In this document: one piece after another, positions 2-5,709 of the stretch
Numbering within the stretch: position 1 is the stretch's first letter
Layout: each line of letters opens with the position of its first letter
NCBI GenBank assembly: GCA_008375315.1
Contig: CP032507.1
Span: 124,001 to 188,000 of the forward strand
Length of the DNA stretch: 64,000 nt
Direction: 5' to 3'
From: Ectothiorhodospiraceae bacterium BW-2
Lineage (GTDB): Bacteria > Pseudomonadota > Gammaproteobacteria > Thiohalomonadales > Thiohalomonadaceae
The notes under the pieces: model-generated
What the model saw: only the letters and a program-made list of their open reading frames with translations
Databases searched by the model: none
Told to the model about the DNA's origin: nothing
Made by a program: the position numbers and the translations under genes

Positions 2-2422
2 GTGCCGGCACGCAAACTCAAACTAGCCAGTGGTGAAGAGGTTTGGGTGGCCTCGGTCTATGACATGCTCATTGCCCAGTACGGCATTGATCGTGGTTTA
101 GGTGACAATCTAGCCACCTCCTATGACGATGCCAATATCGCCTACACCCCTGCCTGGGGCGAGAAGGTGACCGGCGTAAAACGGGCCGATCTCATTCGCA
201 CCGGACGAGAGTTTGCCGACAATGCGAGTAAAACCCAGGGTAAATCGATGGTCATTATGGGGGCAGCGATTAACCACTGGTACCATAACGATATGGGCTA
301 TCGCAGCATTATGAATATGCTCCATATCTGCGGCTGCGTTGGTCAGTCGGGGGGTGGCTGGGCGCACTATGTCGGTCAAGAGAAGCTACGGCCTCAAGCG
401 GGTTGGGCGCCAATAGCCTTTGCTCTCGATTGGCATCGGCCACCGCGTCACATGAACTCAACCACCTACTGGTACTTCCATACCGATCAGTGGCGCTATG
501 AGAAGGTGAGTGGCGACTCGATTATGGCCTCTACCGCCAAAGGGAAGTATAAGGGCTACCAGATTGCCGACTACAATGTGGTTTCACAACGGCTCGGCTG
601 GCTCCCCTCGGCACCCCACTTTAACCAAAACCCTATCGAGATTGTAAAAGCGGCTGAAAAAGCCGGCGCAACCGATGAGGCGGGTGTGGCGAACTATCTG
701 AAAGAGCAACTTAAAAGTGGCAAAATTGCCTTTGCGAGTGAAGATATCGACGCCGCAGAGAACCATCCTCGCAACCTCTTTGTCTGGCGGGCTAACCTGC
801 TCGGCTGTTCGGCTAAGGGGCATGAGTATTTTCTCAAACACCTAGTCGGGGCACAAAATGGCGTCATGCAGGAGGGAACGGAGGGAGCCGACTCCAAAGA
901 GATTAAGTGGCGTGAAAAGTCACCGGTCGGTAAGCTCGATCTCATGGTCGATATCAACTTCCGCCTTAACTCAACCGGTGCCTACTCCGATATTATTCTG
1001 CCGACGGCAACCTGGTATGAGAAGGCCGATCTCAACACCACCGATATGCACCCCTTTGTCCACCCGATTGGCAAGGCGGTCGATCCACAATTTGAGTCAA
1101 AATCGGATTGGCAGATCTTCCAGACCATTGCGAAAAAGTTCTCTGAACTGGCCGAAAGTGAGCTCGGTACCCAAAAGGATGTCGTCTCGCTGCCGATGCA
1201 GCACGACTCTCCCATGGCATTAGCCCAGCCGTTTGGTGAGGTAAAGGATTGGAAACGGGGCGAGTGCGATCTGATCCCCGGCAAAACCGCGCCGCTGTTT
1301 AAACTGGTAGAGCGCGACTATCCTAATACCTGGAAGAAGTTTACCTCGGTCGGCCCCTTAATGAACAAGCTAGGGAATAACATTAAAGGGATCGACTGGA
1401 ATACCGATCTTGAAATTGAGCAGCTTGGCAAACTCAATGGAGTGATTACGGAGGAGGGGATCTCAAAAGGGCGGCCACAACTGCTCGAAGATGAGGCGGT
1501 CTGCGATACGGTACTGCACATGGCTCCAGAGACCAACGGTGAAGTAGCGCACAAATCGTGGACAGCACTGTCGAAAAAGACCGGCATTGATCACCACCAT
1601 CTCTACGCCGGACGGCATGAGGAGAAGATTCGTTACCACGACATTATTGCCCAGCCGCGCAAGATTATTACCGCGCCGACCTGGTCGGGCATTGAGTCGG
1701 AGGAGGTGAGTTACAACGCCTGCTATACCAATATCCATGAGCATATCCCCTTTAGAACCCTGACTGGCAGAGCCTCGTTCTATCTCGATCATGAGTGGAT
1801 GCTCGACTTTGGCGAAGGGCTCTGCTGCTATCGGCCACCACAAGATCTTGGCGCGCATACCCATCTGCCGGCGGTACTCGCTGGTAAGCTGCAAGGTAAA
1901 AAGACCCTCACCCTTAACTGGATCACGCCCCATTCGAAGTGGGGGATCCACTCGACCTATCAGGACAATCTGCGGATGTTGCACCTGTTTCGCGGCGGCC
2001 CCTACTTCTGGCTGAATGAGGATGAGGCCAAAAGCATCGGTATTAAAGATAACGATTGGGTCGAAGCGGTGAATGCCAATGGAGCGACGGTCGCTCGTGT
2101 AGTGGTGAGTCAGCGGGTACCGCAAGGGATGGCAATTATGTACCACGCCCAAGAGAAGAATGTGAATGTTCCCGGTTCGAATACGACCGGTAAACGGGGC
2201 GGTATTCTTAACAGCGTCACCAAGGTGATTATGAAGCCGACCAATATGATTGGCGGCTACGCCCAGCTCTCCTACTCGTTTAACTACTACGGCACCGTCG
2301 GTAGTCAGCGAGATGAGCATGTCATAGTGCATAAAATTGAGGAGGCTGATATCAACTGGCTTGAGGGGGATTTGACACCTGAGCGGGAGAGACAGCTCAA
2401 TCCGGTTGGAATTAACAATTAG
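2..2422 (+). CDS. narG: Respiratory nitrate reductase alpha subunit, 3' part
   Basis: C-terminal 806 residues of the molybdenum-bis-MGD catalytic subunit of membrane-bound nitrate reductase, which reduces nitrate to nitrite on the cytoplasmic face. The frame is open from the first bases, so the true start and the N-terminal Fe-S and Mo-ligand regions lie outside the window; the family is about 1250 aa. Recognisable blocks include HHHLYAGRHEEKIRYHD and, near the end, NVPGSNTTGKRGGILNSVTK and GGYAQLSYSFNYYGTVGSQR. It is followed 19 bp later by narH, then narJ and narI, in the standard operon order. Identification is secure; the first in-window GTG is not a proposed start. Confidence 0.97.
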   Translation: MPARKLKLASGEEVWVASVYDMLIAQYGIDRGLGDNLATSYDDANIAYTPAWGEKVTGVKRADLIRTGREFADNASKTQGKSMVIMGAAINHWYHNDMGYRSIMNMLHICGCVGQSGGGWAHYVGQEKLRPQAGWAPIAFALDWHRPPRHMNSTTYWYFHTDQWRYEKVSGDSIMASTAKGKYKGYQIADYNVVSQRLGWLPSAPHFNQNPIEIVKAAEKAGATDEAGVANYLKEQLKSGKIAFASEDIDAAENHPRNLFVWRANLLGCSAKGHEYFLKHLVGAQNGVMQEGTEGADSKEIKWREKSPVGKLDLMVDINFRLNSTGAYSDIILPTATWYEKADLNTTDMHPFVHPIGKAVDPQFESKSDWQIFQTIAKKFSELAESELGTQKDVVSLPMQHDSPMALAQPFGEVKDWKRGECDLIPGKTAPLFKLVERDYPNTWKKFTSVGPLMNKLGNNIKGIDWNTDLEIEQLGKLNGVITEEGISKGRPQLLEDEAVCDTVLHMAPETNGEVAHKSWTALSKKTGIDHHHLYAGRHEEKIRYHDIIAQPRKIITAPTWSGIESEEVSYNACYTNIHEHIPFRTLTGRASFYLDHEWMLDFGEGLCCYRPPQDLGAHTHLPAVLAGKLQGKKTLTLNWITPHSKWGIHSTYQDNLRMLHLFRGGPYFWLNEDEAKSIGIKDNDWVEAVNANGATVARVVVSQRVPQGMAIMYHAQEKNVNVPGSNTTGKRGGILNSVTKVIMKPTNMIGGYAQLSYSFNYYGTVGSQRDEHVIVHKIEEADINWLEGDLTPERERQLNPVGINN

Positions 2423-2441: not shown

Positions 2442-4010
2442 ATGAAAATTCGCGCACAAATTGCCATGGTGCTCAATCTGGACAAGTGCATCGGCTGCCA
2501 TACCTGCTCGGTCACCTGCAAAAATATCTGGACTAACCGTAAGGGGGTCGAGTACGCCTGGTTTAATAATGTTGAATCGAAACCCGGGGTAGGTTATCCC
2601 AAAAATTGGGAGGATCAGCAGAAGTGGATGGGGGGCTGGCGAGCCGCTGGTGGCAAGCTGGAGCTCAAAGCGGGCGGTCGCTTTAAAAAGCTCGTCAATA
2701 TCTTTGCTAACCCCGATATGCCGCAAATTGACGACTACTATGGCCCGGAGCCGTTCGATTACGACTACGCAAAGTTACAGAACAAGCCCCTATCGGAGGC
2801 GGCACCGACCGCCCGTCCGATCTCGGCGATTACCGGTGACCGAATCGATAAAATCACCTGGGCGCCGAACTGGGAGGATGATCTGGCCGGGGCATTTGAA
2901 GATCGCTCGCAAGATGTCAACTTTAAAGATATCGAAAAGCAGATGTACAAAGAGTTTGAAAAAACCTTTCACATGTACCTGCCGCGGCTCTGTAACCACT
3001 GCCTCAACCCCGCCTGTGTCGCCTCCTGTCCGAGTGGGGCGATGTATAAGCGCGAGGAGGATGGGATTGTCTTAATCGACCAAGATAAGTGTCGCGGTTG
3101 GCGGATGTGTGTCAGCGCCTGCCCCTACAAAAAGATCTACTATAACTGGGAGTCGGGCAAATCGGAGAAGTGTATCGCCTGCTATCCACGGGTCGAGTCG
3201 GGGCTGCCGATGGCGTGCGCCGAGTCGTGTGTCGGTCGGATTCGCTATGTCGGGGTGATGCTCTATGATGCCGATAAGATCTCCGATACGGCAGCCACTC
3301 AGAGCGAACAGCAGCTCTATGATGCCCAGATGGGGGTCTTTCTCGATCCAAACGATGAGGCGGTGATTAAACAGGCGATTGCCGATGGCGTACCGATGCA
3401 GTGGATTGAAGCGGCGCAAAACTCTCCGGTTTGGAAGATGGCGATGGAGTGGAAGATCGCCTTCCCGATCCATCCAGAGTTCCGTACCCTGCCGATGATG
3501 TGGTATGTGCCACCGCTCTCACCGGTACAGAGCCAGATTGATCAAAACAATCTACCGACCGAGGCCGATGGCAATATCCCTAAGGCCGAAGCGCTGCGGT
3601 TCCCAGCCAAATATCTGGCCAATCTGCTCACCGCCGGTGATGAGAAGCCGATTATTAGCGCCCTGCAACGACTATTAGCGATGCGTAGTAATCAGCGCAG
3701 CAAGGCGGTTGATGGTCAGAGCAATACCGCAGCGCTTGAGTTGACCGGACTGACTGAAGCGCAATCGGATGCGATGTATCAGCTACTCGGCATTGCTAAC
3801 TATGACGATCGTTTTGTTATCCCCACCAGTCAGCAGGGGCAGGCACCGTATATCGAAGACCCTTATGCTTTTCAGGGGCAGAACGGCTTTAGCGCCGGTA
3901 ACTGTAGCGGCCATGGCGATGATGGCGGTACTGGGCTGAGTCTTTTTCCGGTCAAACGGGAGAGCTCATTCTCGCCGCAAGATATTCAACGCAAGTATCG
4001 GAAAGGGTAA
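2442..4010 (+). CDS. narH: Respiratory nitrate reductase beta subunit
   Basis: Iron-sulfur electron-transfer subunit that carries electrons from the NarI haems to NarG. The 522 residues match the usual length. Four cysteine clusters are visible: CIGCHTC near residue 16, CNHCLNPACVASCP near 185, CRGWRMCVSACPYKK near 215 (the Trp in place of Cys is typical of the 3Fe-4S site) and CIACYP with CAESCVGRIRYVG near 245-270. The start follows a GAGG ribosome-binding site in the short gap after narG. The C-terminal half is the NarH-specific extension. Confidence 0.97.
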   Translation: MKIRAQIAMVLNLDKCIGCHTCSVTCKNIWTNRKGVEYAWFNNVESKPGVGYPKNWEDQQKWMGGWRAAGGKLELKAGGRFKKLVNIFANPDMPQIDDYYGPEPFDYDYAKLQNKPLSEAAPTARPISAITGDRIDKITWAPNWEDDLAGAFEDRSQDVNFKDIEKQMYKEFEKTFHMYLPRLCNHCLNPACVASCPSGAMYKREEDGIVLIDQDKCRGWRMCVSACPYKKIYYNWESGKSEKCIACYPRVESGLPMACAESCVGRIRYVGVMLYDADKISDTAATQSEQQLYDAQMGVFLDPNDEAVIKQAIADGVPMQWIEAAQNSPVWKMAMEWKIAFPIHPEFRTLPMMWYVPPLSPVQSQIDQNNLPTEADGNIPKAEALRFPAKYLANLLTAGDEKPIISALQRLLAMRSNQRSKAVDGQSNTAALELTGLTEAQSDAMYQLLGIANYDDRFVIPTSQQGQAPYIEDPYAFQGQNGFSAGNCSGHGDDGGTGLSLFPVKRESSFSPQDIQRKYRKG

Positions 4011-4022
4011 GGGAGATAGCAC

Positions 4023-4538
4023 ATGGTAATCTATAAACTACTCTCTAGGCTGCTCGACTACCCCGGGCGGGAGCTATTTGAGAACTTTGAGGAGCTTGAG
4101 CGCGTCGCCGCTAACGATCCCTCGCTAAATGAGAGCGAGCGGGAGACGATTTGCGGTTTTGTGTCGTGGTTATCACTGCACACCCTAACCGGTGCGCAGC
4201 AGAACTATGTCGAGACTTTCGATATGACGCCCGAGCACGATCTCCATCTCACCCACCATATCTTTGGCGATAGTGGTGAGCGGGGGCCGGCACTCATCGA
4301 TCTAACTCAGCACTATAGTGCGAACGGGTTGGCGATTGTCGAGAAGGAGATCCCAGACTATCTACCGCTGATTTTGGAGTATCTTTCGACCCTTGATGAG
4401 ACGCAGGCGCGGTTCTTTCTCGCCGATGCTCGTAAGGTCGTCAGTGTTCTCGCAAAGAATCTGGAGAAGAGTGATAGCCCTTACGCTAAACTGTTGAAAA
4501 TTGTTGAGAGCCGAGGCCAGTTGGCGCAAGCGGCTTAA
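4023..4538 (+). CDS. narJ: Nitrate reductase maturation chaperone
   Basis: A 171-residue protein of the NarJ/TorD-type chaperone family, needed to insert the molybdenum cofactor into NarG and for membrane attachment of the complex. The N-terminus YKLLSRLLDYPG and the block FDMTPEHDLHLTHHIFGD are characteristic of NarJ. The start lies 12 bp after narH, preceded by GGGAGA. Length is somewhat short for the family but the conserved core is present. Confidence 0.93.
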   Translation: MVIYKLLSRLLDYPGRELFENFEELERVAANDPSLNESERETICGFVSWLSLHTLTGAQQNYVETFDMTPEHDLHLTHHIFGDSGERGPALIDLTQHYSANGLAIVEKEIPDYLPLILEYLSTLDETQARFFLADARKVVSVLAKNLEKSDSPYAKLLKIVESRGQLAQAA

Positions 4539-4564
4539 TCTATCTATTGTTAAGGAGAAGAGTA

Positions 4565-5260
4565 ATGACTCTACACGACTTTATTTTCGGCATCTATCCT
4601 CTGATTGCCGGTACCGTCTTTCTGTTAGGGAGCTGGATTCGGTTTGACAGGGAGCAGTACACCTGGAAGGCCGACTCATCGCAGCTACTCGATAATCGTA
4701 ATATGCGTTTGGCGAGCAATCTGTTTCATGTCGGTATTTTGGCTATCTTTGCCGGCCACTTTGTCGGGTTATTAACCCCGCATAGCTGGTTTTTGGCGCT
4801 AGGGGTCGATGATTTGACCCACCAATATGTGGCCATCTACGCCGGCGTGATCTTTGGTGGTATGTGCTTTATTGGAGCGCTCATGTTGACACTGCGGCGG
4901 CTAAATAACCGTCGTGTCGCGGCGGTGGGGCGTAAGCGTGATCTGGTGACCCTTGTCTGGATTTTGATCACAGTCTCATTAGGGCTACTCTCAATTCCGT
5001 TCTCTCTCTCCCATGCCGGTAATGGCGATGCGACGGTCATGATTGCGCTAACCCACTATGTACAGAGTGTTGCTACCTTGCAGCCCGATCCGGCACTATT
5101 AGCGGGTGTGGATTGGATATTTAAGACGCATATGTTCTTTGGCATGACGCTCTTTTTAATCTTCCCCTTCACCCGTCTAGTCCATATCTGGAGTGTTCCT
5201 ATCGGCTATCTAGGTCGGGCCTACCAAATTGTTCGTCGCCGTCGGATGGTGATGAACTAG
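4565..5260 (+). CDS. narI: Nitrate reductase gamma subunit (cytochrome b)
   Basis: Membrane dihaem b subunit that oxidises quinol and passes electrons to NarH. The 231 residues show about five hydrophobic segments starting with FIFGIYPLIAGTVFLLGSWI, with histidines in FHVGILAIFAGHFVGLL and HMFFGMTLFLIFPFTRLVHIW that fit the haem ligands. The ATG at 4565 is preferred over an upstream in-frame TTG (4547) because AAGGAG lies at the right distance before it. It is the last gene of the core nar cluster and is followed by a strong hairpin. Confidence 0.95.
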   Translation: MTLHDFIFGIYPLIAGTVFLLGSWIRFDREQYTWKADSSQLLDNRNMRLASNLFHVGILAIFAGHFVGLLTPHSWFLALGVDDLTHQYVAIYAGVIFGGMCFIGALMLTLRRLNNRRVAAVGRKRDLVTLVWILITVSLGLLSIPFSLSHAGNGDATVMIALTHYVQSVATLQPDPALLAGVDWIFKTHMFFGMTLFLIFPFTRLVHIWSVPIGYLGRAYQIVRRRRMVMN

Positions 5261-5270
5261 AGATATCGGC

Positions 5271-5300
5271 CACTCTCCCTTGACTGCTCAAGGGAGAGTG
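5271..5300. terminator. Perfect 13-bp hairpin after narI
   Basis: CACTCTCCCTTGA and its exact reverse complement flank a 4-nt loop directly downstream of narI. There is no clear T-run afterwards, so it may be an attenuator or an RNA-processing and stability hairpin that separates narGHJI from the DsrC-like gene rather than a strong terminator. Confidence 0.55.
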
Positions 5301-5340
5301 GCTCTCTCGAACTTTATGATTAACTTCAAGAGGTATCAAT

Positions 5341-5709
5341 ATGATGCGTGCTAATCCATTCGCTATTCGTAGTGAGTATATTTTGGTCGGTGAGACGAGT
5401 GTTGAAACCGATCAGGAGGGGTACATTCAGGATATGGAGCTCTGGTCGGAGGGGTTTGCTAAGGCGCAGGCAGAGAAAGAGGGGCTGACCTTGACCTCGG
5501 AGCACTGGGATGTGATCCACTATATTCGTGACTACTATGAAGAGCATGGCGTACAGGCACAGGTACGCACTATGATTAAACATTTTAAACAGGCTTGGGG
5601 TGAGGAGCGGGGTAATAACCACTATCTGCACGATCTCTTTCCTATGGGCGGGCCGCAAAAACAGGGCAACCGTCTAGCCGGTATTCGGCGCACTAAGGGT
5701 GAACACTAA
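5341..5709 (+). CDS. DsrC/TusE-family protein lacking the C-terminal cysteines
   Basis: A 122-residue member of the DsrC/TusE/RspA family. DsrC is the sulfur-carrying partner of dissimilatory sulfite reductase and TusE is a relay protein in tRNA 2-thiolation; both act through a penultimate cysteine on a flexible C-terminal arm. The family core is clear: GYIQDMELWSEGFAKAQAEK, LTLTSEHWDVIHYIRDYYEE and LFPMGGPQKQGNRLAG. The C-terminus, however, ends GIRRTKGEH and the whole protein contains no cysteine. That fits the cysteine-free RspA-type subgroup proposed as regulatory. It has its own ribosome-binding site (AAGAGG) and lies between narI and moaA, which suggests a role tied to nitrate respiration. 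Function is inferred. Confidence 0.88.
   Translation: MMRANPFAIRSEYILVGETSVETDQEGYIQDMELWSEGFAKAQAEKEGLTLTSEHWDVIHYIRDYYEEHGVQAQVRTMIKHFKQAWGEERGNNHYLHDLFPMGGPQKQGNRLAGIRRTKGEH

Follow-up and report, generated by a model that had tools for sequence, protein, structure and literature searches.

Cysteine-free members of the DsrC superfamily are an already known category; Venceslau et al. in 2014 reportedly named them RspA and proposed that they are regulatory. DsrC proper has two cysteines in its C-terminal tail and a place in the dsr operon, and TusE has the penultimate one of these cysteines. The DsrC of A. vinosum is persulfurated at its penultimate Cys111 (PMC3397948). The sirohemes of DsrAB are described as partly exposed for the interaction with DsrC, and many sulfite reductases reduce nitrite in a side reaction (PMC10229431). 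The role of the extra DsrC homologs of A. vinosum was left open in its genome paper (PMC3368242). In the literature searched, which included few subscription papers, we found no account of a Cys-free DsrC branch linked to nitrate genes. The nitrate-linked and dsr-dependent branch described here appears to be new within the Cys-free category.

The window, i.e., the whole stretch of 64,000 nucleotides that was analyzed (contig CP032507.1, positions 124,001 to 188,000), stems from Ectothiorhodospiraceae bacterium BW-2, whose genome is called G000 in the following. It contains a small gene preceded by narGHJI and followed by moaA and a carbonic anhydrase gene (Table 1). TIGRFAM matches bore out the placement between narI and moaA that had been predicted. 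The true start of narG is located before the window at G000:C1:122664. Further upstream, molybdenum cofactor genes, NarL-like and NarX-like genes and genes for two NarK-like transporters were recognized by eye in the translations.

Table 1. Features of the nar region, numbered from the first nucleotide of the window.
Feature	Position	Strand	Evidence
narG, truncated by the window start	2..2422	+	TIGR01580, 1164.3 bits (cut-off 1084.15)
narH	2442..4010	+	TIGR01660, 831.9 bits
narJ	4023..4538	+	TIGR00684, 119.1 bits
narI	4547..5260	+	TIGR00351, 237.8 bits
Hairpin (16-bp stem, 4-base loop) in the gap between narI and the DsrC-like gene	5268..5303	+	RNA MFE
Cys-free DsrC-fold protein, 122 aa	5341..5709	+	PF04358 (E 2.1e-33), TIGR03342 (105 bits), AlphaFold2 model and Foldseek match to DsrC
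Conserved tail, residues 103-122 (GGPQKQGNRLAGIRRTKGEH)	5647..5706	+	Comparison of 96 sequences, alignment to DsrC and TusE
moaA	5731..6732	+	TIGR02666, 365.4 bits

The gene begins with two adjacent ATG codons, either of which may be the start, and its product contains zero cysteines. The Pfam DsrC model covered residues 17-117 with 115.4 bits (cut-off 24.9), and the TIGR03342 score was well beyond the cut-off of 53.5 bits that indicates membership in the DsrC/TusE superfamily. Among proteins of known structure, the DsrC of A. vinosum (1yx3) was both the top phmmer match and the best Foldseek hit in the PDB (E 2.8e-9; the top eight hits all belonged to the DsrC family) for an AlphaFold2 model built from 46 input sequences. 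This model, with a mean pLDDT of 89.6 and values <50 at residues 1-6 and 120-122, shows the DsrC fold. The original prediction of a complete DsrC fold signature in a protein devoid of cysteine was therefore correct on both counts.

Compared to DsrC (1yx3, 1sau, 2v4j chain C), the protein has the same predicted fold, the motifs FP-x-GP-x-KQ and AG, and the same tail length after AG. It differs by Asn110 and Glu121 in place of the two cysteines, by one added Gly, by an identity of 37-43% where measured, and by a gene location beside nitrate genes, in the window within the nar operon, a relative in genome G504 with its gene in a dsr cluster being the exception. With TusE it shares the superfamily model TIGR03342, but it has Glu121 instead of the penultimate cysteine and reached just 96 bits with the TusE equivalog model NF008562 (cut-off 191 bits). 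The absence of tail cysteines it has in common with RspA as reportedly described. The product is a member of the DsrC/TusE superfamily that is neither DsrC nor TusE.

Relatives were collected by two scan patterns, one of them GGPQKQGN, which favors tails of the GEH type, and by a profile search scoring the whole protein, tail included; the members added by the latter carry the same tail. With this bias, the tail GGPQKQGNR-x-AG-xxxx-GEH was nearly invariant across 96 distinct sequences (window protein included). Residues 103-111, Ala113, Gly114, Gly120 and Glu121 were identical in all 96, and the final residue was His in 95 and Val in one. After AG, the tail can be aligned to those of DsrC and TusE up to the end, with one Gly added; Asn110 then falls on the first DsrC cysteine and Glu121 on the penultimate one, which corresponds to Cys111 of A. 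vinosum DsrC. None of the 96 sequences has a cysteine within its last 50 residues. In the stretches examined, cysteine was absent from 78 sequences, and a single one was present in 18, in 14 of them near the N-terminus. A sequencing error hiding a tail cysteine, which would have undermined the prediction, is ruled out by this agreement. Since the cysteines used by DsrC and TusE are missing, sulfur carriage on them is excluded, as had been claimed. The positions conserved in both the Cys-free group and DsrC are nearly all common to TusE as well, Glu26 and Gly120 being the only DsrC-conserved positions kept here and absent from TusE; hence no DsrC-specific docking signature is evident.

The scan yielded 361 confirmed stretches, possibly including other DsrC-family genes, and the best 80 of them, some of which share a genome, were analyzed for their neighbors, a tabulation that had been proposed along with the prediction. 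In 59 of these 80 loci, narI had the same orientation and was no more than 7 kb away (upstream in 54, downstream in 5), and in most nar loci the Cys-free gene directly followed narI. One of the five downstream cases, L110 (Thiothrix), has the gene between a narK-like gene and narG. Any nar match was obtained in 74 of 101 loci, including three with NarH only that we read as cross-matches, and the narI counts alone were used. In 11 out of 56 relative genomes, an ortholog was detected with an E value of at most 4.2e-50; the next-best matches were at E 3.3e-25 with at most 45% identity. The ortholog adjoined nar genes in ten of the 11 genomes, and narI lay within 1.5 kb of 10/11 members vs 0/38 other DsrC-family loci, a control set that contains at least one gene twice (as L001 and as L162) and some loci with shorter flanks. 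This comparison with the paralogs rules out chance adjacency; the lack of a conserved nar association, named beforehand as a reason to drop the prediction, was not encountered.

Among the 21 of the best 80 loci without narI, 12 had the gene by HPP and/or LysR-like genes, four by PP2C/kinase genes together with nitrate-type ABC or NarK-type transporters, and two beside ubiU/ubiV. No recognized nitrate neighbor was present at L084, L087 and L095 (3/80) and at L042. In six of the 21 loci nar could have been missed because less than 1.1 kb of upstream sequence existed. Family assignments were checked on examples, namely HPP in three loci, the transporters and the kinase/phosphatase of L099 and L092, UbiU, UbiV, and NarK, which scored just under its cut-off; LysR was identified by eye. 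According to PMC7438415, HPP is putatively a transporter of nitrite. An operon comprising nirB, nirD and the gene of a nas-like molybdoenzyme precedes the Cys-free gene in genomes G063 and G141; in one example of each, NirB and NirD exceeded their cut-offs and the Nas-like protein remained below. In G158 the Cys-free gene lies near cobA and heme d1-like genes, the latter read by eye. Hence, the initial description as a nar-cluster gene holds for the majority of loci but is too narrow, as the gene also occurs by genes for nitrate assimilation, by nitrate/nitrite transport genes, by HPP/LysR-like genes and in a dsr cluster. Spread by viruses was rejected, since none of 36 pattern matches in viral contigs was confirmed.

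A class sample of 276 genomes contained the gene in 12, narG in 48, dsrA in 91, nirB in 144 and napA in 55 genomes. All 12 carriers matched the dsrA model vs 79 of 264 non-carriers (p 1e-6). Shared ancestry is not accounted for in this and the following p values; the 12 carriers have 11 family labels. At least one of narG, nirB and napA was present in 170 genomes; 76 of these have dsrA, and 12 of the 76 carry the gene, whereas it is in none of the 94 without dsrA (p 4e-5). Within the dsrA genomes, napA was enriched in carriers (9/12 vs 29/79, p 0.02), and all 12 carriers had narG or nirB vs 56 of 79 others (p 0.03); narG by itself was found in 5/12 vs 17/79, which is not significant (p 0.15). 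Only five of the 22 sampled genomes with both narG and dsrA carried the gene, so it is unnecessary for combining the two. It was found in none of the 26 narG genomes lacking dsrA.

Ten further carriers all matched the dsrA model, giving 22 of 22, with three weak cases: G011 scored only in the dsrB-like range, and G013 and G215 matched by fragments only. In 14 of the 22, narG was found, and in all of these but G033 (13/14) the gene is adjacent to nar; eight had no narG match. The link between sulfur chemistry and nitrate respiration that had been suggested from the window thus gained support. As every carrier matches the dsrA model, the tie is stronger than could be seen from the window. In a phylum sample of 397 genomes, three members were identified by score (G000, G504, G520), all of one class. 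Thirteen of the 16 genomes with matches at E <= 1e-30 were not accepted as carriers (5.2e-35 to 8.2e-31), the best locus of each having the penultimate cysteine as in DsrC or TusE. In G504, in which narG had no match, the gene is flanked by a dsrN-like and a dsrR-like gene; a cobA-like gene lies further out, and dsrA is at a distance of about 11 kb (identities read by eye). Of the genetic ties to DsrAB, this placement is the most direct one.

Our tentatively favored reading, though less likely than not, is a DsrC mimic without sulfur. It would bind a protein of the Dsr system, probably DsrAB, and restrain or protect this partner when nitrite is formed or imported. Such a protein would be a paralog of DsrC that lost sulfur transfer and kept the fold and the protruding tail. 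It would be produced together with the enzymes or importers that bring nitrite into the cytoplasm, and would occupy the DsrC site on its partner. With the siroheme sulfite reductase DsrAB as the likeliest partner, the docking may slow sulfur oxidation or shield DsrAB from nitrite during nitrate use. Fold, cysteine loss, tail conservation, nitrate linkage and co-occurrence with dsrA-model matches were observed; what we infer from them is which partner is bound, that docking takes place, that activity is affected and that nitrite is the signal. A mimic of this kind should occur only with dsrAB, and all 22 carriers agree with this, the three weak or fragmentary ones included. Against it stand the near-complete overlap of its DsrC-like positions with TusE, the small share of narG and dsrA genomes that carry the gene, the loci without a recognized nitrate neighbor, and the non-significant enrichment of narG among dsrA genomes. 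A more specific version is rather doubtful. In it, a dedicated mimic produced along with nitrate reductase or nitrite importers closes the channel that DsrC uses in reverse DsrAB, and its conserved Glu-His end reaches the siroheme at the place of the DsrC cysteine, thereby protecting the siroheme from nitrite and gating sulfur oxidation. If true, the plug would act at the protein level to switch between using nitrate and oxidizing sulfur.

Many of the stretches matched in the scan come from groups of sulfur oxidizers (Sedimenticola, Thiodiazotropha, Thiobacillus, Thiothrix and others). To our knowledge, it is unsettled how such organisms keep nitrite and siroheme-based sulfur oxidation compatible; a small Cys-free protein accompanying both systems would be a testable handle on this compatibility. 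The position of the gene next to nitrate genes in many sulfur oxidizers suggests that the use of nitrate and the oxidation of sulfur are connected in a way yet unexplored. The carrier Ca. Thiodiazotropha endolucinida (L100) has highly expressed dsrC/tusE genes in a transcript table (PMC13137333), among which the Cys-free gene may be.

A regulator of the RspA type is almost as likely as the mimic, though taken by itself somewhat unlikely. Here, a DsrC fold freed from sulfur transfer would act on DNA or via a regulator and tune nar/nas or dsr genes to the sulfur or nitrogen status. The regulatory role proposed under the name RspA would fit, and so would A. vinosum DsrC, which reportedly binds DNA near dsrA. 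LysR-like genes, read by eye, adjoin many of the non-nar copies, and in the window genome the NarX/NarL-like genes lie upstream of nar. However, the body of the Cys-free group is acidic like that of DsrC, with a mean net charge of -6.9 when the last 20 residues are left out, the fold search gave weak matches to LexA (E >3), and regulation per se does not explain why the tail was kept at DsrC length.

An assembly or adapter protein for the membrane-bound nitrate reductase NarGHI and its relatives is improbable. The position just after narI in most nar loci would suit this role, as would the adjacent moaA, seen in the window and, by tblastn, in three of 71 narI loci. The missing narG match in eight of 22 carriers disfavors a strict partner of narG, as do the HPP/LysR-like and dsr-cluster contexts without narG, and the assembly role is less likely because none of the 26 narG genomes without dsrA carries the gene. 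A sulfur carrier like TusE or DsrC, e.g., for molybdenum cofactor or tRNA, may be dismissed as hardly credible in spite of the family annotation (TusE/DsrC/DsvC) and the neighboring moaA, the missing cysteines ruling out a sulfur relay and the TusE equivalog score being far below its cut-off.

Besides the gene in question, G000 harbors three other DsrC-family genes: the dsr cluster contains a true DsrC, a second product has the penultimate cysteine as its single one, and the third is again Cys-free. This third gene (L144:10269-10613, minus strand) has the tail RKGGY, is divergent from dsrAB and lies beside a cas6_cmx6 gene (TIGR02807). The same tail was seen in 13 other loci when tails were compared. 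The RKGGY group (L004, L033, L168-L179) resembles the nitrate-linked group in lacking tail cysteines (14/14) and in Gln72 and Trp86, which both Cys-free groups have unlike DsrC and TusE, but its tail is longer. The 23 members included in a tree of 79 rows formed one group (99/94), which joined the RKGGY group at 100/99 with tail columns included. When seven rows and the tail columns were removed, the members remained together (99/95), but they joined the RKGGY group in only 23% of the bootstrap trees. A single origin of the two Cys-free groups thus appears supported with the tail columns and not without them. G000 also has two dsrA genes (G000:C1:433060-434262 and 1090833-1092035) with nearly equal scores. 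Tails ending in WSTG with the first cysteine only occurred in L022, L180, L182, L183 and L187, which form one group in the tree. In L131, L134, L135 and L136 (G292, G091, G196, G158), the DsrC-like domain makes up the C-terminal part of ORFs of 213-235 aa, whose N-terminal parts of approximately 100 aa are similar to each other.

Regarding the gap upstream of the Cys-free gene in the window, the region of the very strong hairpin (5255-5345) gave an RNA MFE of -39.5 kcal/mol (z -7.2), and no terminator-like T run was found at the hairpin itself. Perfect stems of at least 9 bp between narI and the gene were present in 23 of 66 other locus stretches, some of which represent the same locus twice, and T runs followed some of these 23 stems. 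Eleven loci were picked for a long gap, and nine of them (L049, L051, L059, L063, L069, L080, L083, L101, L116) contain a small gene with the cytochrome c motif CxxCH between narI and the Cys-free gene.
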